Below are positions 4,931 through 61,820 of a stretch of 64,000 nucleotides of DNA, in pieces (position 1 is the first letter of the stretch; the number at the start of each line of letters is the position of its first letter). Made by a program: the position numbers and the translations under genes. Origin of the DNA: Sphingobacteriales bacterium 46-32 (GTDB taxonomy: Bacteria; Bacteroidota; Bacteroidia; Chitinophagales; Chitinophagaceae); NCBI GenBank assembly GCA_001898485.1, contig MKTY01000027.1:372001-436000 (forward strand). The letters are read 5' to 3'. Under the pieces are notes generated by a model, which was not told where the DNA came from, did not search any database, and saw nothing but the letters and a program-made list of their open reading frames with translations.

Positions 4931-6538
4931 TTGAAAAAAACCATCCTGCTTCTGGGCCTTTTGCTGGGCTTTGCGGCACTGTGGGCACAGCCCTTTGCCG
5001 ACACTACCTCAGCTTTGAAAGAGCAAAAAGACAATGTGATCCGCAGAGGAACGGTCATTAAGATCGAAAATCTCGGTTTTAATGTCAACTCCGAATTCGC
5101 TGAACTGCGGCCCACAGTATCTGCTGATGGCAATCTTCTTTTTTTCATCTGCGAAAATCATCCTTACAATACACATTACAGGGGTATCCGCAACTCGCAG
5201 GATATCTGGTTTTCGGAACGCGATAGTGCCGGCAATTGGGGTGAAGCACAGCACCTGGGATATCCACTCAATACTTATTATTATAATGCCGTGTACTGGA
5301 TCTCACCCGATAACAACCGCATTCTTATCCGTAATGCATTTGTAAATGGCGATTATGTGGGTAATGGTGTAAGCATGAGTTATCGTACCCGCAACGGAGG
5401 CTGGAGCAAGCCCGAAATGCTGCATATTAAAAACTATCCCAAATATGACCGTGGCCGGCAGAACGGCGCAACGATGGCACACGACGGTCAAACCCTCCTG
5501 CTGTATATGTCTGAAGAAAAAGGCAGCTACAACAATGACCTTTATGTATGTTTTCTGCAGCCTGATGGCAGCTGGTCAGAACCCAAAAGCCTGGGTAAAA
5601 AAATAAATCTGAAAGAGTTTAATGAAATGACTCCTTACCTGGCTGCTGATGGTGAAACACTTTACTTCAGCAGCGACAGAACGGGTGGTGTTGGCGACAA
5701 CGACATCTGGATGACAAAGCGTCTTGATGACACCTGGCAGAAATGGAGTGACCCTCAAAATCTGGGAGAGCCTATTAATACTACTGACTGGGATGCTTTC
5801 TTCACCCTCGATGCAGGCGGTGAATATGCGTATATGACCACCAGCCTCAACACCTTTGGCGAAAGTGATATTGTGCGCGTGAAACTGCTGGAAAAAGAAC
5901 GTCCCAACCCTGTTGTGATCGTTACCGGCAATGTATATGATGCCAAGACCAAAAAACCGCTGAGTGCTTCACTCGTATACCAGACACTGCCATCCGGAAC
6001 GGAAGCCGGCAACGGCGTATCGAGCCCGGATGACGGAGCATTTAAGATTGTACTGCCTTATGATAAAAACTACCTGATACGTGCCACTGCCGATCATTAT
6101 TTTGCGCAATCTGAAAACCTGAAACTCGACTCCCTGGCCAAAGCGGGCTTTATGGAAGTACATAAAGACCTCTATCTCATGCCTATTGAAATAGGCCAGG
6201 TGGTGCGTCTCAACAATGTATTCTTTGACTACGATAAATGGAATCTGCGGCCAGAATCATTTGTTGAACTCGACCGTGTTGTAAAACTGTTAAAAGAGAA
6301 TCCGGCTATCGTCATTGAAATGAGCGCTCATACAGACAGCCGTGGTTCGGATGCCTATAACTTTACGCTGAGTGATAACCGGGCACGCTCTGTTATGGAA
6401 TATATTTTATCGAAAGGAATCTCCACAGACCGTATTACATCAAAAGGCTATGGCGAAACAAAGCCAGTAATGCCGAATGATTCGGAACTGAATATGCAGC
6501 TGAACCGGCGGGTGGAGTTTACAATTATGAAAAACTGA
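4931..6538 (+). CDS. OmpA-family protein with PD40 beta-propeller repeats
   Basis: A 535-residue envelope protein. A signal peptide (MKKTILLLG to LWAQ) is followed by several WD40-like PD40 repeats at about 55-320 with the pattern L.P..S.DG..L.F.S....G..DIW. A carboxypeptidase-regulatory-like beta sandwich (VIVTGNVYDAKTKKPLSA) follows, then a C-terminal OmpA domain (about 425-535). The OmpA peptidoglycan-binding residues are visible in AHTDSRGSDAYN and LNRRVEF. Proteins of this layout anchor outer-membrane assemblies, including type IX secretion or motility parts, to peptidoglycan. The only start giving the signal peptide is TTG at 4931; the ATG at 4920 is out of frame. Confidence 0.87.
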   Translation: MKKTILLLGLLLGFAALWAQPFADTTSALKEQKDNVIRRGTVIKIENLGFNVNSEFAELRPTVSADGNLLFFICENHPYNTHYRGIRNSQDIWFSERDSAGNWGEAQHLGYPLNTYYYNAVYWISPDNNRILIRNAFVNGDYVGNGVSMSYRTRNGGWSKPEMLHIKNYPKYDRGRQNGATMAHDGQTLLLYMSEEKGSYNNDLYVCFLQPDGSWSEPKSLGKKINLKEFNEMTPYLAADGETLYFSSDRTGGVGDNDIWMTKRLDDTWQKWSDPQNLGEPINTTDWDAFFTLDAGGEYAYMTTSLNTFGESDIVRVKLLEKERPNPVVIVTGNVYDAKTKKPLSASLVYQTLPSGTEAGNGVSSPDDGAFKIVLPYDKNYLIRATADHYFAQSENLKLDSLAKAGFMEVHKDLYLMPIEIGQVVRLNNVFFDYDKWNLRPESFVELDRVVKLLKENPAIVIEMSAHTDSRGSDAYNFTLSDNRARSVMEYILSKGISTDRITSKGYGETKPVMPNDSELNMQLNRRVEFTIMKN

Positions 6539-8622: not shown

Positions 8623-11600
8623 TTAAAATATTCGCACCTGATCCTTTCCTATCACTTTACCGTTTCCGTCTACCAGGCGTACAAAGTAAATGCCATGTGC
8701 ATGACCTCTAAGATTTACCTCCATGCTCGAGTAAGGTGCATAAGGAGTAAATGCTTTGGAGAATACCAGTGCGCCTTTACTGTCAAATACCATCAGCTGA
8801 CGGGGTTTCACATCGTTGCTGCCTTGCTGGTAGTACCGCACTGTAAACTGGCCGTTGTTTGGATTGGGGCCGATAAACATACGGGCCGATGCAGAATCCC
8901 TGATCACTACTTCATTTGAAACAGCCATACAGTTATTGTCTGATACAAATTTCGCTGTATAAGTTCCTAATCCATCCACTCCTACCTGAAGTGTATTTTG
9001 ACTGGCACCTATTACCCAGCCATCATTTTTATACCAGGTGATACTTCCAGGTACTTGTGGGGTGATAGAAGCAGTAATAGTCGTGAACATTCCGGGCATC
9101 AGGCTGGTATAAGGAGCTACACTCAACGTTACCACCGGTTGCGGATTTACCACTACCGTTACGCTGGCGCAGGCAGTCATATTACAATCGCCTTCAGCAC
9201 GTACATAGAAAGTAGTGGTTTCATCAACCTGTACCTGTTGCAGGCTGCTACCCTGACCAATAGAAGTACCGCCACAGGCTTCTTTATACCATTTCCAGGC
9301 GGCGCCAGTACCCAGCGCACCACCAACTACCTGCAGGTTCACTTTGCCACCACCGCAGAGTGCGGTCTGGCTGGCAGTGATTTGTGCAGGCGCTTGTGAA
9401 GCCGCTTTTACTGTAATGGTAAATGTCTGCGCAGGACCTTCACAACCATTTGCGTGCGGTGTGACACGAATGGTGGCCACCTGAGCGGTAGAACCGGTAT
9501 TGGTTGCCACAAATGATGGGATGTTGCCCGTGCCGGTTGCAGACAGACCGATGGACGTTTTATCGTTTGTCCAGGTATAAGTCGTTCCGCTTACAGGGCC
9601 GCTGAAGTTAACGGCCTGTGTATTGCCACCCACACATACAACCTGGCTGGCAGGTACATCTGCCGCTGGTGTGGGGTTAACGGTGATTGTGTATTGTATA
9701 GCAGGTCCTGAGCAGCCGTTGGCTACAGGAGTTACTTCGATTGTTGCTGTCTGAATGCTGTTTGTAGTGTTGACGGCAGTAAAGGCAGGTATTGTACCTG
9801 TACCGGAAGCTGCCAGGCCAATTGAAGGCAGGCTGTTGGTCCAGTTATAAGTGGTACCTGCTACAGGCGAACCGCCAGGCTCAACAGCAACTGTGCTACT
9901 ATTGTTACATACAACAACAGCATCGATCTCATCCACACCTGGTGTGGGATTAACAGTTATAGTAAAGCTGCGTACAGGACCAGGACAACCATTGGCAGTT
10001 GGCGTTACACGGATAGTAGCCACTATTGGTTCATCGGTATTATTGATTGCAGTGAATGACGGCAGATTGCCGTTTCCACTTGCAGCCAGGCCAATAACAG
10101 TCTGGTCGTTGGTCCACTGGTAGGTTACTCCGCTCACGCTGCTGTGGAAAGACACAGCAGGCTGGGTTGCCTTATTACATACTATCTCATCTTCTACCAC
10201 ATCCACTACGGGTGTGGGATTTACTGTAATAGTAAACGTTTTTGAACTACCTGTACAGCCATCTGCTACAGGAGTAACCTGTATAGTAGCTACCACAGGA
10301 GCTGTACCGTTGTTGCTGGCAGCAAAAGCTGCAATATTACCATTTCCTGAAGCTGCCAGGCCAATGCCGGGAGCAGAGTTGGTCCAGTTGTATACAGTAC
10401 CGCTTACTGTACCGCTGAAATTAACTGCGGCAACAGAAGACTGGTTACAGAGTGTCTGAGAAGATACAGCCAGTACGGTTGGCAGCGGTTTAGTGCTGAT
10501 GGTCACCGTTTTGCTCACCGTACAACCTTTTGCATCAGTGATGAGGCAGGAATAAGTACCTGCTGCGAGACCACTGGCTGTAGCAGCCGTGCCACCACTC
10601 GGTGACCAGCTGTAAGTATAAGGTGCTGTGCCACCTGATGGTGTTACTGTAGCGCTGCCATTGAGTGCACCGGCACAGGATTCGTCTACAAAACTGCTGG
10701 TAGCTGTGAGTACCGGTGGTTGGTTGATTGTAATGCTACGGGTAGTCTGACAGCTGTTATTATCGGTAATAGTTACCGTATACGTACCAGCAGCGAGGCC
10801 ACTGGCTGTAGCAGCTGTGCCACCACTTGGCGCCCAGCTATAGGTGTAAGGGGCTGTACCACCACTCACACTTACCGAAGCCGAACCGTTTGAACCACCG
10901 TTGCAGCTTACATCCGTTTTGGATGTAGTAACGGCAAGTGCAGCCGGCTGATTGACTGTGATCGTACGGGTAGTCTGACATAATTTATTATCCGTAATAG
11001 TTACGGTATATGTACCCGCTGCCAGTCCGGTAGCAGTGGCAGAAGTGCCACCACTTGGTGCCCAGCTAAAGGTATAAGGCGCTGTACCGCCGCTTACACT
11101 CACAGAAGCCGTACCATTTGAACCGCCATTGCAGCTTACATCCGTTTTGGAGGTAGTAGCAGCAAGTGCAGCAGGCTGAGTGATGGTTACGCTACGGGTA
11201 GTCTGACAGGCATTATTATCGGTGATAGTAACCGTATAGGTGCCGGCAGCAAGACCAGTGGCTGATGCAGCCGTACCACCACTTGGCGCCCAGCTATACG
11301 AATAAGGAGCTGTACCACCGGTTGCGTTAACTGTAGCCGTACCATTGGCACCGCCATTACAGCTTACATCCGTTTTGGAGGTAGTACCGGCCAGTGCAGT
11401 CGGCTGATTGATGGTAAAACTGCGGGTAGTCTGACAGGCATTGTTGTCTGTAATGGTAACTGTATAAGTGCCGGCAGCAAGACCTGTGGCTGTAGCAGCC
11501 GTACCACCACTTGGTGCCCAGCTATAAGTATAAGGAGCTGTGCCACCACTTACATTTACAGAAGCCGTACCGTTTGAACCGCCATTGCAGCTTACATCTG

Positions 11601-14424
11601 TTTTGGAAGTAGTAATGCTAAAAGCAGCTGGCTGAGTAATTGTTACACTTCTTGTAGTCTGGCAGGTATTGTTATCGGTAATAGTTACCGTATATGTTCC
11701 CGCTGCCAGACCAGTAGCAGTAGCAGCTGTACCACCACTCGGTGCCCAGCTATAAGAATAAGGAGCCGTTCCGCCGGTTGCATTTACGGTAGCTGTACCA
11801 TTAGTACCGCCATTGCAGCTTACATCTGTTTTAGAGGTAGTACCGCCGAGAGCAGCTGGTTGATTTACTGTAACGGTGCGGGATATCTGGCAACTATTGT
11901 TATCGGTGATAGTAACTGTATAGGTTCCTGCAGCCAGGCCGGTAGCTATCGCAGCAGTACCGCCACTGGGTGCCCAGCTGTAGGAATAAGGTGCGGCTCC
12001 CCCTGTTACGTTAACAGAAGCTGTACCATTACTTCCACCATTGCAGCTCACATCTGTTTTGGAAGCAGTACCGCTAAGGGCCGTTGGTTGATTAACCGTA
12101 ACAGAACGGGTGATCTGACAGGTGCTTACCAGGTCTGTAATAGTACAGGTATAAGTACCCGCAGCCAGACCGGTAGCTGTAGCTGCTGTGCCGCCACTGG
12201 GCGACCAGCTGTAGGAATACGAACCGGAACCGCCGGTTACACCTGAAACAGTGGCTGTTCCATTGCTGCCACCATTACAGCTCACATCTGTTTTGCCAAT
12301 AGAAGCAGTAATGGGTGCAGGTTGAGTGATCGTTACGTTGCGGGTGGTCTGGCAGGTATTATTATCTGTAATTGTAACGGTATAAGAACCCGCAGCCAGG
12401 CCAGTGGCTATAGCTGCTGTACCACCACTGGGAGACCAGCTGTAACTATAAGGAGCTGCGCCACCCGTCACGCCCGAAACAGTCGCAGTACCATTCGTAC
12501 CACCATTACAACTTACATCTGTTTTAGATACTGAAGCGGTAATAGCTGAAGGTTGGCCGACCGTGACACTTCGGGTGATCTGGCAGGCATTGGCATCCGT
12601 AATGGTACATGTATAGGTACCTGCAGCCAGACCGGTAGCCGTCGCTGCAGTACCACCGCTGGGCGACCAGCTGTAAGTATAAGCGGGCGTACCACCTGAT
12701 GCAGCAACACTGGCTGTTCCATTACTGCCACCATTACAGCTTACATCCGTTTTGGAAATAGTAGCTGTGAGGGCAGTGGGTTGGGTAATTGTGAAACTAC
12801 GGGTTGTCTGACAGGTATTATTATCGGTGATCGTAACAGTATAGGTACCTGGCGCAAGACCTGTTGCAGTAGCAGCTGTGCCACCACTGGGCGCCCAGCT
12901 ATAGGAGTAAGGCGCTGTAGCACCAGATACCGACACAGTTGCTGTACCATTGGAGCCACCATTGCAACTTACATCCGTTTTAGATGTACCTACAGTGAAA
13001 GCTGCCGGTTGATTGATAGTGACAGTACGTGTGATCTGACAGGCATTAGCATCCGTAATGGTGCAGGTATATGTACCTGCTGCAAGGCCCGTAGCTGTAA
13101 CAGCGGTACCACCGCTCGGTGACCAGCTATAGGTATAAGCTCCGGCTCCGCCTGAAACACCAGAAACGGTGGCTGTACCATTGCTTCCTCCATTACAGCT
13201 TATATCTGTTTTAGAAATAGTAGCACTAAGTGCAACAGGTTGAGTGATCGTTACACTGCGGGTGGTCTGACAACCGATGTTATCAGTGATAGTGCAGGTA
13301 TAAGTACCTGCAGCCAGGCCGGTAGCTGTAGCAGCCGTACCACCGCTGGGTGACCAGCTGTAGGTATAGGGTGCTGTACCGCCTGTTGCTCCGGAAACAG
13401 TCGCCGTACCATTGGCACCGCCATTACAACTTACATCCGTTTTGGCGATGGAAGCAGTAACCGCATTGACGGTAAGTGTACCGGCAGTAGAAGTAGCTGC
13501 GGGACTGGTAGAGCCCGTTGCCACACACCTGTACAGATAACCATTCATTGCGGAAGTAGCGCCAGTAATAGTTAATGTAGCCGTGGTAGCATTACTATAA
13601 ACGCCGCCATTGGTAATGGGGGTAAATCCAGAACCGGTATTTACATGCCACTGATAAGATGTGGCATTGGTAGCTGTAACTGAAAAAGTAGTATTGTTGC
13701 CGGCACAGATTGTTCTGTTGGGCGGATTGGCTGTAATAGCAGGAGCCGGAACGCCAGCAACCGGACCAACGATAAGATCGTCGATCCAGAAATTCATGAT
13801 AGCATAAAACCGAACGGTTACTTCCGTTACGGCCACATTTTTAGAAAGCGTAAGCTGAAGTGTGGTAGTACCACTGCCTCCTGTGGGTGTGGGATCTGCC
13901 CAGGTCTCTGTTCCCCCCACCGTCTTCACATAATCAACCGTCACAAAATTGGTGGCACCCAAATACCCTTTCATACTAAAGTGCTTTATCCAGAGACCAT
14001 AAAACTGGAAAGGTTGATTATCCGCACGCTTGATGGTGACGAAATCGCCACCTGAACCATCTTTGGAAAGACATTTACTGTTGCTATTTCCACCGGTGGC
14101 AGAATTGGTAAAAGAACCGTTGCCACCACAGGTAAGCTGGTAGGCAACTCCGCCCACCGTTATATCGGCCTGGGTATTCCAAATGCCAAATCCACCCGCT
14201 CCACCGGAAATAGTGGCATTGGTGGTAAAGTCGTAGGTAGTCTGTGCTCTTGAGGAGCTAAAACAAAATGTAAATAAGGAAAGTAGCAACAGCAATCTTC
14301 CGAAAGCAGAACGGAATGTATCCGGGGAAGAGCTGCTAATAAGTCCCGCTAAACGGGATTTTTGAAAAGAACCTGATGAGATAGCATAAGATGCAATCGC
14401 CGCACGGGTAAAGTTCGGTGTCAT
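8623..14424 (-). CDS. Giant SprB-repeat adhesin secreted by the type IX system
   Basis: A 1,933-residue secreted protein. A long basic leader and hydrophobic core (RLLLLLSLFTF) end at SSRAQ near residue 61. A beta-rich N-terminal domain (about 62-230) and one Ig-like domain follow. Then come 13 tandem SprB-like repeats of 75-77 residues, each built as KTDVSCNGG..G.A.V...GG..PY.YSW.PSGGTA...TGLA.GTY..TITD...C...R..T..QP. Four PKD-like repeats of about 93 residues and two Ig-like units come next. The C-terminal 85 residues are a type IX sorting domain (MFIGPNPNNGQF near the start, GIYFVRLVDGNGKV near the end). By analogy with SprB it should be a surface adhesin for gliding or attachment. No secretion genes lie nearby. 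Confidence 0.9.
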   Translation of the reverse strand: MTPNFTRAAIASYAISSGSFQKSRLAGLISSSSPDTFRSAFGRLLLLLSLFTFCFSSSRAQTTYDFTTNATISGGAGGFGIWNTQADITVGGVAYQLTCGGNGSFTNSATGGNSNSKCLSKDGSGGDFVTIKRADNQPFQFYGLWIKHFSMKGYLGATNFVTVDYVKTVGGTETWADPTPTGGSGTTTLQLTLSKNVAVTEVTVRFYAIMNFWIDDLIVGPVAGVPAPAITANPPNRTICAGNNTTFSVTATNATSYQWHVNTGSGFTPITNGGVYSNATTATLTITGATSAMNGYLYRCVATGSTSPAATSTAGTLTVNAVTASIAKTDVSCNGGANGTATVSGATGGTAPYTYSWSPSGGTAATATGLAAGTYTCTITDNIGCQTTRSVTITQPVALSATISKTDISCNGGSNGTATVSGVSGGAGAYTYSWSPSGGTAVTATGLAAGTYTCTITDANACQITRTVTINQPAAFTVGTSKTDVSCNGGSNGTATVSVSGATAPYSYSWAPSGGTAATATGLAPGTYTVTITDNNTCQTTRSFTITQPTALTATISKTDVSCNGGSNGTASVAASGGTPAYTYSWSPSGGTAATATGLAAGTYTCTITDANACQITRSVTVGQPSAITASVSKTDVSCNGGTNGTATVSGVTGGAAPYSYSWSPSGGTAAIATGLAAGSYTVTITDNNTCQTTRNVTITQPAPITASIGKTDVSCNGGSNGTATVSGVTGGSGSYSYSWSPSGGTAATATGLAAGTYTCTITDLVSTCQITRSVTVNQPTALSGTASKTDVSCNGGSNGTASVNVTGGAAPYSYSWAPSGGTAAIATGLAAGTYTVTITDNNSCQISRTVTVNQPAALGGTTSKTDVSCNGGTNGTATVNATGGTAPYSYSWAPSGGTAATATGLAAGTYTVTITDNNTCQTTRSVTITQPAAFSITTSKTDVSCNGGSNGTASVNVSGGTAPYTYSWAPSGGTAATATGLAAGTYTVTITDNNACQTTRSFTINQPTALAGTTSKTDVSCNGGANGTATVNATGGTAPYSYSWAPSGGTAASATGLAAGTYTVTITDNNACQTTRSVTITQPAALAATTSKTDVSCNGGSNGTASVSVSGGTAPYTFSWAPSGGTSATATGLAAGTYTVTITDNKLCQTTRTITVNQPAALAVTTSKTDVSCNGGSNGSASVSVSGGTAPYTYSWAPSGGTAATASGLAAGTYTVTITDNNSCQTTRSITINQPPVLTATSSFVDESCAGALNGSATVTPSGGTAPYTYSWSPSGGTAATASGLAAGTYSCLITDAKGCTVSKTVTISTKPLPTVLAVSSQTLCNQSSVAAVNFSGTVSGTVYNWTNSAPGIGLAASGNGNIAAFAASNNGTAPVVATIQVTPVADGCTGSSKTFTITVNPTPVVDVVEDEIVCNKATQPAVSFHSSVSGVTYQWTNDQTVIGLAASGNGNLPSFTAINNTDEPIVATIRVTPTANGCPGPVRSFTITVNPTPGVDEIDAVVVCNNSSTVAVEPGGSPVAGTTYNWTNSLPSIGLAASGTGTIPAFTAVNTTNSIQTATIEVTPVANGCSGPAIQYTITVNPTPAADVPASQVVCVGGNTQAVNFSGPVSGTTYTWTNDKTSIGLSATGTGNIPSFVATNTGSTAQVATIRVTPHANGCEGPAQTFTITVKAASQAPAQITASQTALCGGGKVNLQVVGGALGTGAAWKWYKEACGGTSIGQGSSLQQVQVDETTTFYVRAEGDCNMTACASVTVVVNPQPVVTLSVAPYTSLMPGMFTTITASITPQVPGSITWYKNDGWVIGASQNTLQVGVDGLGTYTAKFVSDNNCMAVSNEVVIRDSASARMFIGPNPNNGQFTVRYYQQGSNDVKPRQLMVFDSKGALVFSKAFTPYAPYSSMEVNLRGHAHGIYFVRLVDGNGKVIGKDQVRIF
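10490..13460 (-). repeat. 13-copy coding tandem repeat (about 228 bp unit)
   Basis: The DNA encoding the SprB-like repeats is itself strongly repeated. Words such as GCAGCTTACATCCGTTTTGG and CCACCACTTGG recur about every 225-231 bases. The last copy (near 10490-10720) is clearly diverged, with DESCAGALNG instead of DVSCNGGSNG. Copies share long identical stretches, so unequal exchange and length variation are likely, and short-read assemblies may miscount them. Confidence 0.9.
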
Positions 14425-14681: not shown

Positions 14682-15129
14682 TCTGCGGTCTTCTGCGGGC
14701 AAAATTTCCCGTATAGAGTGTCGATTTACGCAGCTATCCTGGACATCCAATAGTGACTCCATCCGGCAAATCAGCATGATTCAATCCATTATTGCAATCC
14801 CTTTTCTGCGGTCTTCTGCGTATTCTGCGGGCAAAATTTCCCGGATAGAGTGTCGATTTACGCAGCTATACCCGGACATCCAATAGTGACTCCATCCGGC
14901 AAATCAGCATGATTCAATCCATTATTGCAATCCCTTTTCTGCGGTCTTCTGCGTATTCTGCGGGCAAAATTTCCCGTATAGAGTGTTGATTTACGCAGCT
15001 ATCCTGGACATCCAATAGTGACTCCATCCGGCAAATCAGCATGATTCAATCCATTAGTGCAATCCCTTTTCTGCGGCCTTCTGCGTATTCTGCGGGCAAA
15101 ATTTCCCGTATATCAATTCTTCGCAGCTC
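14682..15129. repeat. Tandem array of a 132-133 bp TCTGCGG/GCAAAATTTCCC unit
   Basis: About 3.4 copies. The marker AAAATTTCCC starts at 14701, 14833, 14966 and 15098, giving periods of 132, 133 and 132 bases. Each unit holds CTGCGGTCTTCTGCGTATTC, the marker, GATTTACGCAGCTAT, GGACATCCAATAGTGACTCC and CAGCATGATTCAATCCATT. Copy 1 lacks the nine-base CGTATTCTG part and the last copy is cut. The flanking 14425-14680 and 15130-15239 are AT-rich and hold no gene. A diverged single copy lies at 461-521. Confidence 0.92.
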
Positions 15130-26587: not shown

Positions 26588-26593
26588 GAACAA

Positions 26594-26754
26594 TTTGCTG
26601 ATGTGCTAATGTGCTGATGTGCTGATGCCAATCAGACTATTGTTTGACGATCGATTAAATGATTGAACATTCCATAACCTGGAATGCTCAAATTCAAACA
26701 GAATTTTTCAAACAAATCATTAGCACATTAGCACATCAGCACATTAGCACATCA
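26594..26754. repeat. Inverted pair of GTGCTRAT arrays between convergent genes
   Basis: The left arm (26594-26628) holds four 8-bp units (TGCTGATG, TGCTAATG, TGCTGATG, TGCTGATG). The right arm (26718-26754) holds the reverse complements (CATTAGCA and CATCAGCA types). Between them a small hairpin at 26665-26689 pairs GAACATTCCA with TGGAATGCTC. The left arm starts seven bases after the helicase stop. The right arm includes the TGA stop of the DUF1080 gene. The arms could pair into a long stem serving as a two-way terminator. Confidence 0.88.
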
Positions 26755-28836: not shown

Positions 28837-30111
28837 TTAGGGATAGATCAGGTATTTCTTCCGCATTTCTTTATACTGGCTAAGCCCAGGCTCCCAGCTG
28901 GCGCGAATGGCATCGGGCGTGAGGCCGGCTTCTATTTGTTTTTTAAACTCAGTAGTACCGGCCAGTTTATTGATATCGCCCATCTGGTTGCTCTGGCTAC
29001 GATCAAAGAACCGGGCTTTATCCGGAAAATTGCGGTACAACTCCAGCATCCAGTCGAGATTGATACGCCCGCTTTTTACCAATTGGTTTGTATCATACGC
29101 ACGCAGGTCGAGACCGTAGCAAACCTGCTTCATATGCAGCGGGGTTTCACTCATACCTTTAATGCTGACCGGCGTAAAAGAAAAACTGTATTTATCTTTT
29201 AATAACGGACTTCCCAGTATGGTAAACGGAAAATAGGTACCGCGACCATGATTGAGGGCTGTACCTTCAAAAAGACAGGTAGAAGGATACAGAAGTATAC
29301 TTTGCTGCGTATTGAGGTTGGGCGATGGTTTTACCGGCAGTGTATACATCCTATCGTGCCGGTAATTGGCTACCGGTATGATGTGGATTTTGCATTGCAT
29401 ACGGTCAGGGAGCCATCCTTCACCATTGATCATTTTAGCAAATTCACCAATGGTCATACCATGAGCAATGGGAATGGGAAACATGCCGATTCCTGATTTG
29501 AGACGCATGTCGAGTACCGGTCCGTCTACCAGGTAGCCGTTGGGATTGGGGCGGTCGAGAATCAGCAGTTCCTTATTATTTTCTGCGCAGGCCTCCATAA
29601 TATGGCTGAGCACATTGATATAAGTATAAAACCTGCAGCCCACATCCTGAATATCAAAGATCATCAGGTCTACATCGGCCAGGTCTTCTTTGCTGGGTTT
29701 ACGTTTGCTGCCATACAGCGAAATAATCGGTATGCCGGTAGCGGGATCTTTCTCATCATTCACCTTGTCGCCATTGCTGGCGTTGCCGCGAAAGCCATGT
29801 TCGGGGCCAAAGACTTTTACAATCTCCACACCCAGTTTACGCAGACTGTCGACCAGGTGAGTTTGCCCGATGATTGTAGTGGGATTGGCCAGCAGGGCTA
29901 TCCGTTTGCCTTTAAGCAAGGGCAGGTATTTCGCGGTCTGTTCGGCTCCGGTAATGATAGCCTCATTTCCAATTGCTTCGCCCGCCGTTTTAGCCGGCAA
30001 CCTGTTGTTGGCGCAGGCAGCAAATAACAGCAAAAAGCATAATGTGCAAATGTGCTGGTGTGCTAATGTGCTAATATTCTTATTAAAAATAAATTTGCGC
30101 CCTTTTATCAT
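28837..30111 (-). CDS. namZ: NamZ-type exo-beta-N-acetylmuramidase (DUF1343)
   Basis: A 424-residue protein of the DUF1343/NamZ family, which releases terminal N-acetylmuramic acid from peptidoglycan fragments. Family blocks are clear: GKRIALLANPT, VKVFGPEHGFRG, IPIISLYG, MIFDIQDVGCRFYTY, LLILDRPNPNG, PIAHGMTIGE, PSPNLNT, LYPSTCLFEGT and GRGTYFPF. Exported as a lipoprotein (lipobox FAAC). ATG at 30111 is the best start; the frame to 30123 begins with TTG. The residues before the hydrophobic core (ISTLAHQHICTL) are encoded by a GTGCTRAT repeat array, so the signal peptide's n-region is repeat DNA. Confidence 0.86.
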   Translation of the reverse strand: MIKGRKFIFNKNISTLAHQHICTLCFLLLFAACANNRLPAKTAGEAIGNEAIITGAEQTAKYLPLLKGKRIALLANPTTIIGQTHLVDSLRKLGVEIVKVFGPEHGFRGNASNGDKVNDEKDPATGIPIISLYGSKRKPSKEDLADVDLMIFDIQDVGCRFYTYINVLSHIMEACAENNKELLILDRPNPNGYLVDGPVLDMRLKSGIGMFPIPIAHGMTIGEFAKMINGEGWLPDRMQCKIHIIPVANYRHDRMYTLPVKPSPNLNTQQSILLYPSTCLFEGTALNHGRGTYFPFTILGSPLLKDKYSFSFTPVSIKGMSETPLHMKQVCYGLDLRAYDTNQLVKSGRINLDWMLELYRNFPDKARFFDRSQSNQMGDINKLAGTTEFKKQIEAGLTPDAIRASWEPGLSQYKEMRKKYLIYP

Positions 30112-30170
30112 GGTTTTGTTCAAATTGATTTTAATCCATCAGCACATTAGCACACCAGCACATTAATTAA
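30041..30170. repeat. GTGCTRAT inverted arrays overlapping two genes
   Basis: The left arm (30041-30078) has units GTGCAAAT, GTGCTGGT, GTGCTAAT, GTGCTAAT and lies inside the NamZ reading frame. The right arm (30137-30168) reads CATCAGCA, CATTAGCA, CACCAGCA, CATTA and reaches the TAA stop of the AHSA1-like gene at 30167. The spacer of about 58 bases contains the NamZ start codon. Confidence 0.85.
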
Positions 30171-30592
30171 TTTTCTTCCGTGTATTTCTTAAAGCTATCC
30201 AGTATCGATTGCCAGCCGGCGCGTTGTACTTCTACAGGGAAGGTGTTTTCCGTGTCGAATGTCTCGGTGACATGGGTGGTTTCTCCGTCGCCATCAAACA
30301 ATACCTTTACCGTGCGGTTATCGTCCATTGTATATTCGATACGGGCATGTTCGTCTACTGCAGTGTATACTCCACCAAAGTCAAAACCCTGGCTGCCGTC
30401 GCGGGCTTCCATACGGCTGGTAAAACGGCCTTCCACGCGCAGGTCATTACTGGCGCTGGGCGTATGCCAGTCATCTGAGGCACTGTTCCATTTCACGATA
30501 TGAGCCGGGTCTGTCCAGTATTCCCAGACTTTGGCCACGGGGGCATGGATAGTAGTCTTAATTGTGACGCTGTTTTTTTCTTGTGTTGCCAT
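30167..30592 (-). CDS. SRPBCC / AHSA1-like domain protein
   Basis: A 141-residue START-like domain protein. It begins with the typical ITIxAPVxKVWEYWTDP pattern (TTIHAPVAKVWEYW), has WHTPSASND and GGVYTAVDEHARIEYTMDD in the middle, and ends with the amphipathic helix GWQSILDSFKKYTEEN. The family binds hydrophobic ligands or helps chaperones; bacterial members have no agreed function. There is no signal peptide, so it is cytoplasmic. Its stop TAA lies at the edge of a GTGCTRAT array. An unrelated 260-base gap with another array precedes the next gene. Confidence 0.87.
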   Translation of the reverse strand: MATQEKNSVTIKTTIHAPVAKVWEYWTDPAHIVKWNSASDDWHTPSASNDLRVEGRFTSRMEARDGSQGFDFGGVYTAVDEHARIEYTMDDNRTVKVLFDGDGETTHVTETFDTENTFPVEVQRAGWQSILDSFKKYTEEN

Positions 30593-30693: not shown

Positions 30694-30855
30694 GATGTGC
30701 TGATTTGCTAATGTGCTGGTGTGCTAATAAGTTTTTTATTGAACTCATTTTTTAACATTCAAGCAACCCCCTTTTTGCAGGATAGTTGAAGAAACGTCAA
30801 ACTTTTCCCTGTAAATATCATTAGCAAACCAGCAAATCAGCACATTAGCACATCA
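30694..30855. repeat. GTGCTRAT inverted arrays between AHSA1-like gene and hutU
   Basis: The left arm (30694-30729) has GATGTGCTGATTTGCTAATG and GTGCTGGT, GTGCTAAT units. The right arm (30819-30855) has CATTAGCA, AACCAGCA, AATCAGCA, CATTAGCA, CATCA. The arms even share the unusual TTTGCT/AGCAAA variants in mirrored order, so they remain pairable. The last bases form the TGA stop of hutU. Confidence 0.88.
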
Positions 30856-34436: not shown

Positions 34437-34660
34437 TGATGTGCTGATGTGCTGATGTGCTAATGTGCTAATGTGCTGATGTGGGTAAGAAAGTTTTGAT
34501 TTGGAGACACACGGATATAACAATCATTACTTTTTATTTACCTGGTATATCGACTTTACAATATAAATAAAGAGAGCATAGAGTTTAAATTCTCTACGCT
34601 CTCTCAATCAATTAAACAAGATTCATTAGCACATTAACACACCAGCACATCAGCACATTA
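34437..34660. repeat. GTGCTRAT inverted arrays flanking a terminator
   Basis: The left arm (34437-34483) has five to six units (GTGCTGAT, GTGCTGAT, GTGCTAAT, GTGCTAAT, GTGCTGAT). The right arm (34624-34660) has CATTAGCA, CATTAACA, CACCAGCA, CATCAGCA, CATTA. The central 140 bases include the hairpin at 34571-34604. The right arm ends six bases from the stop of the amidase gene. Confidence 0.88.
34571..34604 (-). terminator. Hairpin terminator after the amidase gene
   Basis: AGAGAGCATAGAG pairs with CTCTACGCTCTCT with one G-T-type mismatch and an AT-rich loop. It is centred between the two repeat arms, about 65 bases after the amidase stop codon on the minus strand, and should separate amidase from hutH transcription. 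Confidence 0.7.
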
Positions 34661-35695: not shown

Positions 35696-38425
35696 ATGAA
35701 TCGACTGCGCAAATTTAGTTTAAAATTTTTTTTATTCAGGGCCATGTTTGGCCTCTGCTTTTTTATAGTAACGTGGAAATCAAACGCACAGCGTATATCT
35801 AACCGGGAATTTGACAGACCTTTAACAGGTAAGGCTACCGATACGGTACCTCCTGCACGCCCCCCTGTTACCAGCCCGATCCGCATCGAATCTACCGACA
35901 CCTCCGTTGTTGCGGGCTCCGATTCTACCCGGTTTATCAAAACCGATACATTCTCGCTCCGTTTTTCGAAAGATACACTTTCTGCACCGGTTAATTACTA
36001 TGCCGAAGATTCGGTAGTCGTACATATCCGGAAAAAGAAAATCACCATGTATGGCAAAACCAAAACGGAATACCAGGATGTAAACCTGCAGGGGCCCTGG
36101 GTGGAAATAGACCAGGAAACCCAGCTCATCACCGCACGCAATCAAAAAGACAGTGCAGGTACTGTACTCGAAGAGGCGCAGTTAACACAAGCTGATCAGA
36201 CATTTATCAGCGATACCATCCAATTTAATTTTAAGTCGCAAAAGGGTATTGCGTACAACACCATTACCCAGCAAAGTGAATTTTTTGTGGGCGGCGGTGT
36301 TGCCAAAAAAGTAAGCGAGGATGTGACTTTTATTTCACGCGGACGTTTTACTACCTGCAATCTCGACCATCCGCATTTTGCCTTTATGGCTAATAAACTC
36401 AAGGTGATCAACAAAAAGATGGCAGTATCGGGGCCGGTACATCCCGAATTTGAAGGGGTGCCCGTTCCTATCTACCTGCCGTTTGGCCTCTTCCCTTTAT
36501 CATCCGGTCGCCACTCCGGCATGCTCCCTCCCCAGTTTGCCACCAACGACCAGATGGGGCTTGGACTCGAAGGCCTGGGGTATTATAAAGTCATCAACGA
36601 TTACTGGGATGCCAAGCTGTATGGTAATATATATTCCTACGGCAGCTGGTCGGCCAATATCAACCCCACCTATTACCGCCGTTATCGCTACCGCGGCGCC
36701 TTCAACTTTGGCCTGCAGAAAACCAAACGCAACTTTAAGGGCGATCCTGATTATACGCCTATCAACAGCTATACACTGAGCTGGAACCACAGCATGGACC
36801 AGAAAGCCAGACCCGGCGTAACCTTCTCGGCCAACGTTAATGCCAGTTCCACCCGCTATAATCAAAACGTACCCAATAGCCCCCAGCTCAATTTCCAGAA
36901 CCTGATGGGCTCTTCGATCACTTATTCAAAGACCTGGGTCGACAAACCCTATAACCTTACCATAAGTGCCAACCACTCGCAAAACAACTATAACCGTCTT
37001 GTCAATATAGCTCTGCCCGATATGGGTTTTACGGTAAGTACGCTGTATCCCTTCCAGAAGAAGGATTTTGCCGGATCCAAAAAATGGTATGAGCAGCTGG
37101 GTATTGCCTACAATGGCAACTTCCGCAACTCTGTTTCTTTTTATGATACGGCATTCAAACTGCGTAACCTGCTCGATACCCTGCAGTGGGGAGCCCAGCA
37201 CAATGTACCCATTACCCTTTCTTTGCCTCCCATTCTCGGTGGCGCCATTGTAGTATCACCCAGCGTGAGCTACTCGCAGGTATGGATATCGCAGACTTTC
37301 GAGCGACGCTGGAACGCTGCCGCGCAGAAACTGGATACAGTAGTGAATAAGGGTTTCTTTATGGATCAGCAGGCCAGCTTTGGTCTCAGCTTCAACACGG
37401 CCATGTTTGGTACGTTTAATTTTAAGAGAAGCTCCAAAGTACAGGGCATCCGCCACGTAGTACGTCCATCCATCGGCCTCAACTACCGCCCCGATCTTTC
37501 TTCGAAATATTATTATACTACCCAGATCAATGCCGCCGGCAACACGCAGCGGTTTTCCAAACTACAGGGCGGCATCTATAGCGGATATTCCGAAGGACGT
37601 ACCGGGGGCATCTCATTCCAGCTCGATAATAACGTGGAAATGAAAATGCGCAGCAAGGACTCTACGGGCAACAGTAAACCCGAAATCGTCCGGCTTATTG
37701 AAGGCTTTGGTGTGTCTACCAACTACAACTTCCTGGCCGACTCACTCAAACTGTCGCCGTTCAACTTCTATTTCCGTACCAACCTCTTTCAAAAAATCAA
37801 TATCAACGCCAATGCTATTATGAACCCCTACCAGACCGATAGTTTTGGCAACAACATCAACAAATATGCGTGGGAGGCCGGCAAGTTCAAACTGGGACAG
37901 ATCACCTCAGGCAGTCTTTCTTTCTCCACTACATTTCAGAGCAAACCCCGCGATGAGGATAAGGATAAAAAGAAAAAGCAGGAGCAGGATCAACTCATGA
38001 ATGATCCCACCTTTGCCGATGACCGCCAGCGTATGCTCGATTATATGCGGCAGAATCCTTCTGAGTTTGTTGACTTCAACATTCCCTGGCAGATATCACT
38101 CTCCTACTCGCTTTATTTTGCCCGCCAGATCAAGAGCGACTACAGCGGTTATGAGAATGTGGTACGATCAAGCGCCAACTTCAGCGGCAGCTTCAGCCTT
38201 ACGCCCAAATGGAATTTCACCATGAACGGCTTCTACGATTTCGACACCAAAAAGCTGCAGACATTCAGTATGTCGATCAACCGCGAAATGCATTGCTGGC
38301 AAATGGCTATCAGCGTAACGCCGATTGGCATCTATCGTTTCTTTAACGTAACCATCAGTCCCAAGGCAGGTGTATTGCAGGATCTGCGTATCAACAGAAC
38401 GAGAAGCTTTTTTACCGGCTACTGA
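35696..38425 (+). CDS. lptD: LPS-assembly outer-membrane protein LptD (Bacteroidota type)
   Basis: A 909-residue outer-membrane protein that with LptE places lipopolysaccharide in the outer leaflet. A signal peptide (KSNAQ) leads to an OstA/LptA-like beta-jellyroll (about 110-230) with MYGKTKTEYQDVNLQG, ADQTFISDTIQFNFKS and ISRGRFTTCNLDHPHFAF. The LptD barrel follows, with YLPFGLFPLSSGRHSGMLPP, GLGLEGLGYYKVINDYWD and many aromatic-ended strands to the C-terminus. A charged insert (RDEDKDKKKKQEQDQ, near 750) is a probable loop. The amidase and, further right, the MCE/OstA-like pair belong to the same envelope biology. An AAGGTRW array starts right after the stop. Confidence 0.9.
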   Translation: MNRLRKFSLKFFLFRAMFGLCFFIVTWKSNAQRISNREFDRPLTGKATDTVPPARPPVTSPIRIESTDTSVVAGSDSTRFIKTDTFSLRFSKDTLSAPVNYYAEDSVVVHIRKKKITMYGKTKTEYQDVNLQGPWVEIDQETQLITARNQKDSAGTVLEEAQLTQADQTFISDTIQFNFKSQKGIAYNTITQQSEFFVGGGVAKKVSEDVTFISRGRFTTCNLDHPHFAFMANKLKVINKKMAVSGPVHPEFEGVPVPIYLPFGLFPLSSGRHSGMLPPQFATNDQMGLGLEGLGYYKVINDYWDAKLYGNIYSYGSWSANINPTYYRRYRYRGAFNFGLQKTKRNFKGDPDYTPINSYTLSWNHSMDQKARPGVTFSANVNASSTRYNQNVPNSPQLNFQNLMGSSITYSKTWVDKPYNLTISANHSQNNYNRLVNIALPDMGFTVSTLYPFQKKDFAGSKKWYEQLGIAYNGNFRNSVSFYDTAFKLRNLLDTLQWGAQHNVPITLSLPPILGGAIVVSPSVSYSQVWISQTFERRWNAAAQKLDTVVNKGFFMDQQASFGLSFNTAMFGTFNFKRSSKVQGIRHVVRPSIGLNYRPDLSSKYYYTTQINAAGNTQRFSKLQGGIYSGYSEGRTGGISFQLDNNVEMKMRSKDSTGNSKPEIVRLIEGFGVSTNYNFLADSLKLSPFNFYFRTNLFQKININANAIMNPYQTDSFGNNINKYAWEAGKFKLGQITSGSLSFSTTFQSKPRDEDKDKKKKQEQDQLMNDPTFADDRQRMLDYMRQNPSEFVDFNIPWQISLSYSLYFARQIKSDYSGYENVVRSSANFSGSFSLTPKWNFTMNGFYDFDTKKLQTFSMSINREMHCWQMAISVTPIGIYRFFNVTISPKAGVLQDLRINRTRSFFTGY

Positions 38426-38520
38426 GAAGGGTAAAAGGCAAAAGATGGAAGGTAAAAGGAGTTTTAATTTATACCCTATACCCTTCACGTCACCCTATAC
38501 CTTTTACCTCTTACCTTCAA
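38426..38520. repeat. Inverted AAGGTRW arrays filling the lptD-plsC junction
   Basis: The left arm (38426-38460) begins at the first base after the lptD TGA (GAAGGGTAAAAGG, then GAAGGTAAAAGG). The right arm (38471-38520) reads ATACCCTATACCCTTC, then CTTTTACCTCTTACCTTC, the reverse complement type. It runs into the plsC frame, where it encodes the last residues VEGKR and the stop. The whole space between the convergent genes is repeat. Confidence 0.88.
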
Positions 38521-55584: not shown

Positions 55585-55698
55585 CTCAGCACACTGGCAC
55601 TTTAACAGATTTGAACGTTTCCTGTCATTTTCAAATTTTCAAATCATCAAATCCATCAGCACATCAGCACATTAACAAATTAGCACATTAGCACATTG
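55585..55698. repeat. GTGCTRAT family arrays between VOC and MDR genes
   Basis: The main arm (55654-55698) reads CATCAGCA, CATCAGCA, CATTAACA, AATTAGCA, CATTAGCA, CATTG. A degenerate piece in the same direction (55585-55602) reads CTCAGCACACTGGCAC. Here the arms are not clearly inverted, unlike the other loci. Confidence 0.75.
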
Positions 55699-59603: not shown

Positions 59604-59750
59604 AGTGGACAGTTGACAGTGAACAGTTGACAGTTAACAGTTGACAGTGGACAGTTGACAGTTAACAGTTGACAGTGGACAGTTGACAGTGAACAGTTGA
59701 CAGTGAACAGTTGACAGTGAACAGTTGACAGTTGACAGTTGACAGTGGAC
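59604..59750. repeat. Perfectly phased 21-copy heptamer array AGTKRAC
   Basis: 147 bases consist of exactly 21 units of seven bases with no indel. Units 2, 4, 6 and every other even unit are AGTTGAC. The odd units vary among AGTGGAC, AGTGAAC and AGTTAAC (unit 19 is AGTTGAC). The higher-order period is thus 14 bases. It begins five bases after the OstA-like stop. One degenerate unit (CGTGAAT) follows. Confidence 0.95.
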
Positions 59751-59762
59751 CGTGAATAGGAA

Positions 59763-59830
59763 GACTCTTTAAACTCTCTTTAAACTCTTTATACCCTTTA
59801 TACCCTTTATACTTTTAAATCTTTATACTT
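59763..59830. repeat. CTTTAWAMY-type array reaching into nhaA
   Basis: Units such as CTTTAAACT, CTTTATACC, CTTTATACC and CTTTATACTT repeat with a 9-10 base period. The end of the array contains the stop codon of nhaA and its last codons (SIKI). Confidence 0.8.
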
Positions 59831-60969
59831 TCATTCTTCCTGAAGCACAGACTCAGCACAAACAATCCCAACACTGCTGCTACTGTTGATGCAATCAGTA
59901 TCGCTATTTTAGCATTGGTAATAAAATGAGGAGCATCACCAAAAGCCAGCAGTGTGATAAAGATGGCCATGGTAAATCCGATACCGGCCAGCAATCCCAC
60001 CGCACCGATTTGTTTCCAGTTGACACCTTCTGGAAGTGCACACCAGCCAACGGTTACCGCCAGTGCGCAGAAAAGTAATATACCCAGTGGCTTTCCGGCT
60101 ACCAGTCCGAAGAATATACCCATACTGCTGGAAGAAAACAATTCATCGGCCCAGCCTGCTTCGATGATAATACCAGTATTGGCCAGTGCGAATATGGGGA
60201 GAATAAAAAAAGATACGGGGCGGTGCAGGAAATGCTGGAGTTTGTAAGAAATCGTTTTTTCTCCCCCACTTCCAAACGGGATGGCGAAAGCGAGTAATAC
60301 ACCCGTGATGGTAGGATGCACGCCCGAATGCAGCATAAAGTACCACATAGCCACACCCGGTATCAGATAAGCCCATAGTTTATGTACTTTAAGCCGGTTG
60401 AGCACCAGTAGTCCGGCAAAGATGCCCATGGCGATGCCGAGGTTAAGCAATACCACTCCTTTTGAATAAAAGAAGGCTATGACGAGTATGGCGCCCAGGT
60501 CATCGATTACGGCCAGTGCGGTCAGAAATATTTTAAGTCCGGCAGGTACCCTGTTGCCCAGGAGCGAAAGCATACCGATGGCAAAAGCAATATCGGTTGC
60601 CATGGGTATGCCGGCACCAGCCTGTCCGGCTGTACCGTAGTTAAACAACAGGTAAATACCCGCGGGAACCAGCATGCCTCCGGCCGCTCCGATAACCGGA
60701 AGCAGGGCTGTTTTCAGATTGGATAATTCGCCTTTATAAATTTCACGTTCGAGTTCGAGTCCGATCAGCAGGAAGAAGATCACCATCAGGCCATCGTTGA
60801 TCCAGTATTCGAGGCTGTAATTACCAAGCTTTGTGTGCCAGAAACCAACATAAGCCTCACCTGCAGTGCTATTGGCCAGCAGAAGGGAAATAATGGTACA
60901 GCCAATCAGAATAAATCCACCCGCTTTTTCACTATTAAAAAAATCCGTGAATAGTTTTGTCAATCGCAT
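59815..60969 (-). CDS. nhaA: Na+/H+ antiporter NhaA
   Basis: A 384-residue inner-membrane antiporter that exports sodium in exchange for protons. About 11-12 hydrophobic helices are visible. The family hallmarks are EYWINDGLMVIFFLLIGLELERE near the start, PMATDIAFAIGML and the ion-binding Asp pair in ALAVIDDLGAILVIAFFYS, then FALANTGI and LLAGIGFTMAIFI. Helix IV TDIAFA and the DD pair are intact, so it should be active. The last four residues SIKI and the stop lie inside a CTTTAWAMY array. It is convergent with the OstA-like gene, with the junction fully taken up by two arrays. Confidence 0.95.
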   Translation of the reverse strand: MRLTKLFTDFFNSEKAGGFILIGCTIISLLLANSTAGEAYVGFWHTKLGNYSLEYWINDGLMVIFFLLIGLELEREIYKGELSNLKTALLPVIGAAGGMLVPAGIYLLFNYGTAGQAGAGIPMATDIAFAIGMLSLLGNRVPAGLKIFLTALAVIDDLGAILVIAFFYSKGVVLLNLGIAMGIFAGLLVLNRLKVHKLWAYLIPGVAMWYFMLHSGVHPTITGVLLAFAIPFGSGGEKTISYKLQHFLHRPVSFFILPIFALANTGIIIEAGWADELFSSSSMGIFFGLVAGKPLGILLFCALAVTVGWCALPEGVNWKQIGAVGLLAGIGFTMAIFITLLAFGDAPHFITNAKIAILIASTVAAVLGLFVLSLCFRKNESIKI

Positions 60970-61012
60970 AAGCCCCGGTATTGATAAAGTGCGAAAATAC
61001 CGATATGTGGAA

Positions 61013-61175
61013 AGGTATAAAAGTATAAAGGTTTAAAAGTCTAAAGGAATAAGGTGAAAGGCAGAAGGTGTAAGGTGAAAACTTTTGAATTGCGGCCCCT
61101 TTTCCTTCCCCCCTTTACCTTTTACCTTACTCACAACTTAAAACCTAAAACTTAAAACTTCTACCCTCCACCCTA
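61013..61175. repeat. Mixed AAGGTRW / CTTTAWAMY inverted array upstream of nhaA
   Basis: The left part (61013-61080) runs from GGTATAAAAGTATAAAGGTT through AAGGTGAAAGG and GAAGGTGTAAGGTG. The right part (61105-61175) holds CCTTTACCTTTTACCTTAC and then AACTTAAAACCTAAAACTTA. The arms are inverted and separated by about 25 bases. It lies between the divergent nhaA and the 160-residue gene, about 45 bases from the nhaA start. Confidence 0.75.
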
Positions 61176-61243
61176 CTTTTGCATTTCATTTAGACTTTAC
61201 TGGCATACTATTTCGTTATGCTGACATAAAATTTTCATCTGTT

Positions 61244-61726
61244 ATGAATAAAACAATCTCCGCCCTGCTGGTAGCCACCGCACTTTTCGTTGTTTCATCT
61301 GCATCTGCGCAGAATTACAAAACAGCACTTGGTGTGCGTCTCAGCAGCAGCCAGGCCATGGTAAATAACTCTATTTCTCTCAAACATTTTCTCAATGAGC
61401 GGTCGGCTGTGGAGGCCCTGTTCTCCTTTGGTGATCCGCTTGCACTGGGTGCTCTCTATGAAGTGCATAAACCATTTGCCAGTGAAGGATTGCAATGGTT
61501 CTATGGCGGAGGCGGCTACCTGGGATTTGTAAAAACTTTCAACCCTACCAAAAACCGCAATGAGACGGATGCCAATTTTGGGGCAATGGGTGTGCTGGGG
61601 CTGGATTATAAATTTGCCAATATTCCGCTCAACCTTTCACTCGACTGGAAACCCGAGCTGAACCTGGTCACGGATATCAACTTTGAACCGGCAGCGGTAG
61701 GGTTTACGGCGAGGTTTACGTTCTAG
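61244..61726 (+). CDS. Small outer-membrane barrel-like protein
   Basis: A 160-residue protein with a signal peptide (VVSSASAQ, cut near residue 22). Strand-like segments alternate hydrophobic and polar residues: LGVRLSSSQAMVNNSISLKH, SAVEALFSFGDPLALGALYE, LQWFYGGGGYLGFVKTF and LNLSLDWKPELNLVTD. The final residue is Phe in FTARFTF, the usual C-terminal outer-membrane signal. It resembles the OprG/OmpW-like or PorT-like small barrels of Bacteroidota but no exact family is claimed. A strong hairpin array follows the stop codon directly. Confidence 0.72.
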   Translation: MNKTISALLVATALFVVSSASAQNYKTALGVRLSSSQAMVNNSISLKHFLNERSAVEALFSFGDPLALGALYEVHKPFASEGLQWFYGGGGYLGFVKTFNPTKNRNETDANFGAMGVLGLDYKFANIPLNLSLDWKPELNLVTDINFEPAAVGFTARFTF

Positions 61727-61727
61727 G

Positions 61728-61820
61728 AGTATAAAAAGTTTAAGGAGTTTAAAGGGTATAAGGAGTATTGCTCTCTTTATACCCTTTAAACATTTATACC
61801 CATTATACCTTTCTTACCGT
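61728..61820. repeat. Inverted CTTTAWAMY array with a perfect core hairpin
   Basis: The left arm has AGTATAAAAAGTTTAAGG, the right arm CATTTATACCCATTATACC. The core at 61748-61790 pairs TTTAAAGGGTATAAGGAG with CTCTTTATACCCTTTAAA (one mismatch) around a seven-base loop. It starts right after the stop of the 160-residue gene and probably works as its terminator. Confidence 0.85.

Follow-up and report, generated by a model that had tools for sequence, protein, structure and literature searches.

The 5′ end of a NamZ gene is read through a tandem array of the octamer GTGCTRAT, in the stretch of DNA analysed here (hereafter the window: 64,000 nucleotides, C27:372001-436000 of the 5.49 Mb genome G000, in 27 contigs). 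The most probable explanation, in which we place some but by no means full confidence, is that a gene-border repeat overran the native NamZ start and that initiation passed to an ATG lying in the loop of a convergent array pair. NamZ provides an actual example of a non-coding repeat that has joined a protein, apparently with two such events at one gene, in sister species and with different repeats. The wider pattern of border arrays, described below, is better supported than the NamZ finding itself.

The product of the NamZ gene (Table 1) matched the profiles NamZ_N (4.3e-78) and NamZ_C (2.3e-34), an NCBIfam search gave no match for it, and the alignment of PDB 4jja_A begins at residue 55 of the TTG-started ORF. 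On the minus strand, the frame from ATG 30109-30111 reads MIKGRKFIFNKN-ISTLAHQHICTL-CFLLLFAAC, in which ISTLAHQHICTL is the codon-for-codon reading of the array, from codon 30075 down to 30040. An earlier note on this DNA had described this 5′ end as a direct translation of GTGCTRAT units, and the match to the array at 30040-30075 is exact; its view that the array forms part of a predicted signal-peptide n-region is borne out by the frame as well. The leader, as read by eye and by hydropathy, would consist of a basic n-region, a hydrophobic core and a Cys at a lipobox, with an F at -3 that is unusual. Between the upstream TGA and the array, TTG 30123 and ATG 30111 are the only starts in the NamZ frame, and the other two frames contain stops and no start codon in the loop at 30076-30136. 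Between the array and the Cys, the only start is TTG 30033, which would give just six residues ahead of the Cys; initiation in this interval was ruled out. An exported NamZ needs a start upstream of the array because TTG 30033 leaves so few residues. The earlier note had named translation from downstream of the array with a working signal peptide as the finding that would overturn its reading, and the sequence holds no in-frame start of that kind. ATG 30111 is therefore placed in Table 1 as the likely start; it is probably the one in use, and the protein is probably exported. It sits in the loop between two arms, and the suggestion that the array itself supplies a new start did not hold. Among the papers listed by a literature search on NamZ, none was pertinent. 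Further NamZ relatives are present in G000 at C14:124344 (62% identity), C10:97311 (44%) and C25:34606 (49-62%).

Table 1. Features of the NamZ locus and other GTGCTRAT arrays, in window coordinates
Feature	Position	Strand	Remark
Convergent GTGCTRAT pair	26592..26754	.	
NamZ gene	28837..30111	-	ATG 30111; ORF open to TTG 30123
Presumed lipobox Cys codon	30013..30015	-	residue 33 from ATG 30111; lipobox by eye
GTGCTRAT array, left arm	30040..30075	+	minus strand reads ISTLAHQHICTL
Loop between arms	30076..30136	.	61 nt; holds likely NamZ start
Likely NamZ start ATG	30109..30111	-	in loop of pair; from frame analysis only
GTGCTRAT array, right arm	30137..30165	-	1 bp from AHSA1 stop codon
AHSA1-domain gene, upstream of NamZ	30167..30592	-	frame and profile match
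Convergent GTGCTRAT pair	30694..30855	.	overlaps urocanase stop codon
Convergent GTGCTRAT pair	34437..34660	.	HutH-type lyase start/next gene; loop alignable with G001
Solo GTGCTRAT array	55654..55697	-	

Tandem Repeats Finder (TRF) assigned the array at 30040-30075 a period of 8 with 4.5 copies and 78% matches, and its units are GTGCAAAT, GTGCTGGT, GTGCTAAT and GTGCTAAT. Together with the array at the AHSA1 stop codon it forms an inverted pair (30049-30075 and 30138-30164, 27 nt, 96% complementary), and the RNA fold of the region scores z -7.76, as expected of an inverted repeat. The repeat is abundant: matches to its 16-mer with at most 2 mismatches numbered 29 in the window against 0.14 expected, and 16-mer matches in the genome numbered 866 against 2 for a reversed-pattern control.

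Relatives were compared at the same 5′ end; the earlier note had proposed such a comparison for related strains. G002 belongs to the same genus, with 70% identity across the part that matched, and has an ordinary leader, MKWTFLIAIALSSVC. When the two genes are aligned on the Cys, the G002 start, 14 residues before the Cys, corresponds to the window codon 30057-30055, inside the array. The rest of NamZ after the leader lies in another frame in the G002 assembly, and the upstream neighbour has no DNA match to the AHSA1 gene, so that the far side of the junction differs. The distance from Met to the strongest hydrophobic window is 5 residues in G002 and 23 in the window NamZ; among named relatives its median is 6 and its maximum 16 residues (64 of 80 scorable, the other 16 having been dropped where no motif or Met was found). 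These values come from a rule that picks the last suitable Met, which favours short leaders and in G001 would take an inner Met, and three sequences of the genus were entered by hand with the start judged likely. In the sister species G001 (DNA 90.5% identical over an alignment of 8,359 columns), the pair at the AHSA1-NamZ junction is built of an unrelated repeat, TTTGAARA (fold z -5.76), and a further TTTGAARA array lies in the NamZ frame, where it reads HLQIFKFSNLQI. The G001 gene is truncated by a contig end. It also contains an inner Met, located seven residues ahead of the Cys; the leader is likely repeat-coded, and the inner Met means that this reading is not forced. The same start seems to have been overrun in the sister species with an unrelated repeat. 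Other repeats, AAACGGCAAACGTG and CACATTGCCACATTTC, were seen upstream of NamZ in G002 C25 (L165), at about 5800-6280.

Across C27 and C14 (838,554 bp), 95 GTGCTRAT arrays were found, 89 of them intergenic, and a base-shuffled control that kept only single-base composition contained none. The GTGCTRAT strand points away from the nearest gene border (outward) in 79 of the 89 intergenic arrays, with 6 of the 95 set aside. Arrays of other 7-9 bp families have their G-rich strand outward in 118 of 145 cases (28 of 173 arrays lay inside genes and were set aside, and arrays whose G and C counts were equal were excluded). Gene borders were taken from a simple longest-ORF caller, so that some borders are possibly wrong and start distances are only approximate. 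Within 20 bp of a stop codon, polarity is outward in 39/40 GTGCTRAT arrays and 53/54 others (92/94 pooled); at 21-60 bp the counts are 6/6 and 11/18, and beyond 60 bp the polarity is lost (2/8 and 8/15). Near starts, the corresponding counts within 20 bp, at 21-60 bp and beyond 60 bp are 10/11, 11/11 and 11/13 for GTGCTRAT and 17/22, 17/18 and 12/18 for the other families. The arrays crowd at stop codons: 37 of 70 GTGCTRAT arrays lie at most 6 bp from one, against 5.3 expected under random placement, as do 48 of 129 arrays of other families, against 16.7. Over all short-repeat families, the outward (G-rich) strand has a stop in each of the three frames in 141 of 211 arrays, as does the opposite strand in 31 of 211; in GTGCTAAT units, TAG is present on the inward strand too. 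A second sample (C7, C8 and the first 100 kb of C10; 379,023 bp, 18 arrays) gave outward polarity in 13 of 16 arrays (p=0.021), with 2 arrays at a contig end set aside, and placed 5 of 10 arrays at most 6 bp from a stop codon against 1.5 expected, a count that some of 1,000 random placements equalled. The sole divergent ('-+') close GTGCTRAT pair in this sample is at a contig end, at G000 C7:165-336.

Three GTGCTRAT arrays in the 838,554 bp overlap the 5′ part of an ORF of at least 450 bp, and six further such overlaps by other repeats were found in the first sample. Two of the three ORFs have a plausible downstream Met (MALEKKLKI and MKLDILAIGVHPDDVE); NamZ alone has none, which counts against the overrun reading.

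The explanation we favour would run as follows. GTGCTRAT would be one of several rapidly evolving tandem repeats with 7-9 bp units, which occupy intergenic DNA as far as the edge of the coding sequence, and these border repeats would often form convergent pairs. Short repeats of this kind would expand and may be copied between loci, and between arms by template switching, which is a published route to hairpins (PMC8794818). Next to stop codons, a strand that halts translation in every frame would persist. At the AHSA1-NamZ border, the NamZ-side arm would have grown across the native start codon, and the ATG in the loop, together with an open frame, would have preserved NamZ. The gene may have survived because the start-facing strand of the repeat is poorer in stop codons, because the local mix of units leaves the required frame open and because the loop ATG assumed initiation, so that the array would now be translated as an extra signal-peptide n-region. 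The geometry, the frame, the absence of any usable start further downstream, the leader of G002 and the parallel arrangement in G001 are direct observations, and the array probably arrived after an ordinary leader. The earlier note had suggested, as one of two options, that the element was inserted in the 5′ end and tolerated as n-region; the n-region stands, and a simple insertion is inadequate, because convergent arrays of this kind stand at many gene borders and this one covers the start position of G002. The arrays also show a testable polarity rule for border repeats: constraint by translation predicts polarity next to stop codons. The GTGCTRAT polarity that persists more than 60 bp from starts (11 of 13 arrays) calls for a cause beyond coding constraint, which is weakened as the whole cause of polarity.

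The main rival holds that the paired arrays are selected gene-border hairpins, serving in mRNA 3′ end protection, termination or translation insulation, with the NamZ start regulated in the loop; we regard it as possible, if doubtful. In its favour, all 29 of the 29 close opposite-strand neighbours in the first sample are convergent, as are 4 of 5 in the second, and pairs are enriched where two genes converge, with 11 of 29 so placed, compared with 55 of the 299 intergenic regions that measure at least 100 bp (p=0.026). At AHSA1-NamZ, the arms differ in family between G000 and G001 and yet pair in both (z -7.76 and -5.76), although any inverted repeat folds well and such scores are no test of selection. 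Against it stand the 33 intergenic solo arrays (37 in all), which have no partner and of which 29 keep the polarity, and an Rfam search of the window at gathering scores matched only a tRNA. The conservation of junctions, which would suit a selected hairpin, was followed at 39 orthologous junctions of G000 and G001. Twelve of these carry GTGCTRAT in G000 (11 by unit count and one from the array scan), and the repeat is kept in G001 at 11, the exception being AHSA1-NamZ.

With a single change among 12 junctions, exchange of repeat families as a general rule was rejected. TTTGAARA stands alongside GTGCTRAT at two junctions in G001, a possible route for such an exchange, and at junctions other than AHSA1-NamZ, G000 and G001 have different numbers of GTGCTRAT units. 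In G001, a sample of 155,615 bp partly selected for arrays contains 15 copies of the unit variant AATGGGTTAATGTGC, and 1,217,577 bp of G000 contain 0; arrays at separate loci therefore share species-specific variants. Within pairs, rare unit variants are common to both arms in 9 cases against 3.6 by chance (p=0.0024), and arms are slightly more similar in the same pair than between different pairs (0.854 vs 0.824, p=0.0047). An exact 16-mer match was found in 32 of the 294 family genomes searched, with 369 matches in G000, 172 in G150, 123 in G001 and 0 in G002. It is conceivable, and in our judgement unlikely, that the lineage keeps genome-wide border cassettes, in which unrelated 7-9 bp units obey one polarity rule (stops in all frames out of a gene end, the more open strand into the next start) and are homogenised within a species. 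Hairpins would then persist while their sequences are exchanged wholesale, and NamZ would have acquired repeat coding twice, from different repeats.

That the convergent GTGCTRAT pairs are a mobile element of the MITE kind is quite improbable. The repeat does occupy many loci with convergent ends, and 11 of 29 loops match another loop (E at most 0.01), mostly via a GC-rich palindrome. The other 18 loops, that of NamZ included, match no other loop, so that the copies as a whole lack a shared internal sequence; a clean empty site in G001 was seen at 0 of the 12 GTGCTRAT junctions compared, and solo arrays keep the polarity. A phase-variation switch at NamZ, as raised by the earlier note, is highly improbable: what holds of it is the frame arithmetic, by which only the present frame has a loop start and the gain or loss of one or two units would shift the frame and leave NamZ without an in-frame start and product, and elsewhere G000 and G001 do have differing unit numbers, but the array has about 4.5 mixed units, a single neighbouring pair being identical, and G001 has no GTGCTRAT array at NamZ.

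The nearest kind of known repeat is the published intergenic TAACTGA. MacGregor 2015 (PMC4679880) describes TAACTGA direct repeats between genes of Beggiatoaceae, Cyanobacteria and five Bacteroidetes, with one strand closed by stops in every frame and the other open, and some ORFs in which the open strand is found, also close to protein ends. The GTGCTRAT arrays resemble these in being short-unit tandem arrays, mostly intergenic and of patchy distribution, and in having one stop-rich and one largely open strand (141 against 31 of 211 arrays here). In the TAACTGA case the unit is 7 bp, is unpaired and mostly runs with its stop-rich strand toward a nearby start. That BOGUAY-like orientation was not found for GTGCTRAT, since in 32 of the 35 arrays whose nearest border is a start, the strand turned toward it is the one that is not stop-rich. 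The present arrays belong to the TAACTGA kind and differ in their convergent pairs, in the presence of several families within a single genome and in a reversed polarity with respect to starts, together with an 8-bp unit and arrays that abut stop codons. BrickBuilt of Porphyromonas gingivalis is likewise a tandem repeat in an intergenic inverted-repeat setting of a Bacteroidetes genome; this minisatellite MITE has a 23-bp unit with a fixed leader and tail and lies 49-591 nt from coding sequences (PMC4596501). The GTGCTRAT pairs, in contrast, have 8-bp arms around mostly unrelated loops and touch coding sequences. REP/BIME palindromes, which go with RAYT transposases, are high-copy extragenic sequences able to form hairpins, and differ in that the arms here are tandem 8-mers. 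REP classes include GTAG and CGTC (PMC3733652). Membership in the REP/RAYT group was rejected: the genome has one Y1_Tnp (PF01797) match, and its 3,258-bp locus contains no GTGCTRAT octamer; a remote RAYT may act on the arrays in trans. Rickettsia palindromic elements are repeat DNA within genes that adds residues to proteins, and the NamZ array differs from them in covering a start region and in being tandem short-unit DNA. Literature searches, one of which listed 20 of 2,708 papers, showed no description of GTGCTRAT arrays among the papers listed, and most subscription journals lie outside their coverage.

Several other repeats were observed along the way. On C27, the pairs at 47354, 100686, 273662, 292262, 310971 and 343979 have loops of 127-131 nt that are alike around a GC-rich palindrome, which looks like a two-way terminator; only part of the GC-rich palindromes of C27 and C14 lie inside pairs. 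A convergent repeat of the GGTAAAA/ACCTTTT type lies between convergent genes, directly after a stop codon, at window 38425-38504 and in G001 C414 (L164), where the junction is 161 bases longer than in the window. Short repeat families (AGTTGAC/AGTGAACAGTTGAC, CTCTTTATA, AAAGGTATAAAAGTAT and AGGAGTATAAAAAGTATA) occupy window 59604-59831 and 61011-61768, and families like those recur across C27 and C14. Longer units were also seen: 228-bp units (about 12 copies) and 456-bp units (about 6 copies), with 75% matches, in tandem at window 10736-13460, likely a large repetitive gene, and a tandem repeat with a 132-bp unit (3.2 copies, 96% matches) at window 14682-15112.
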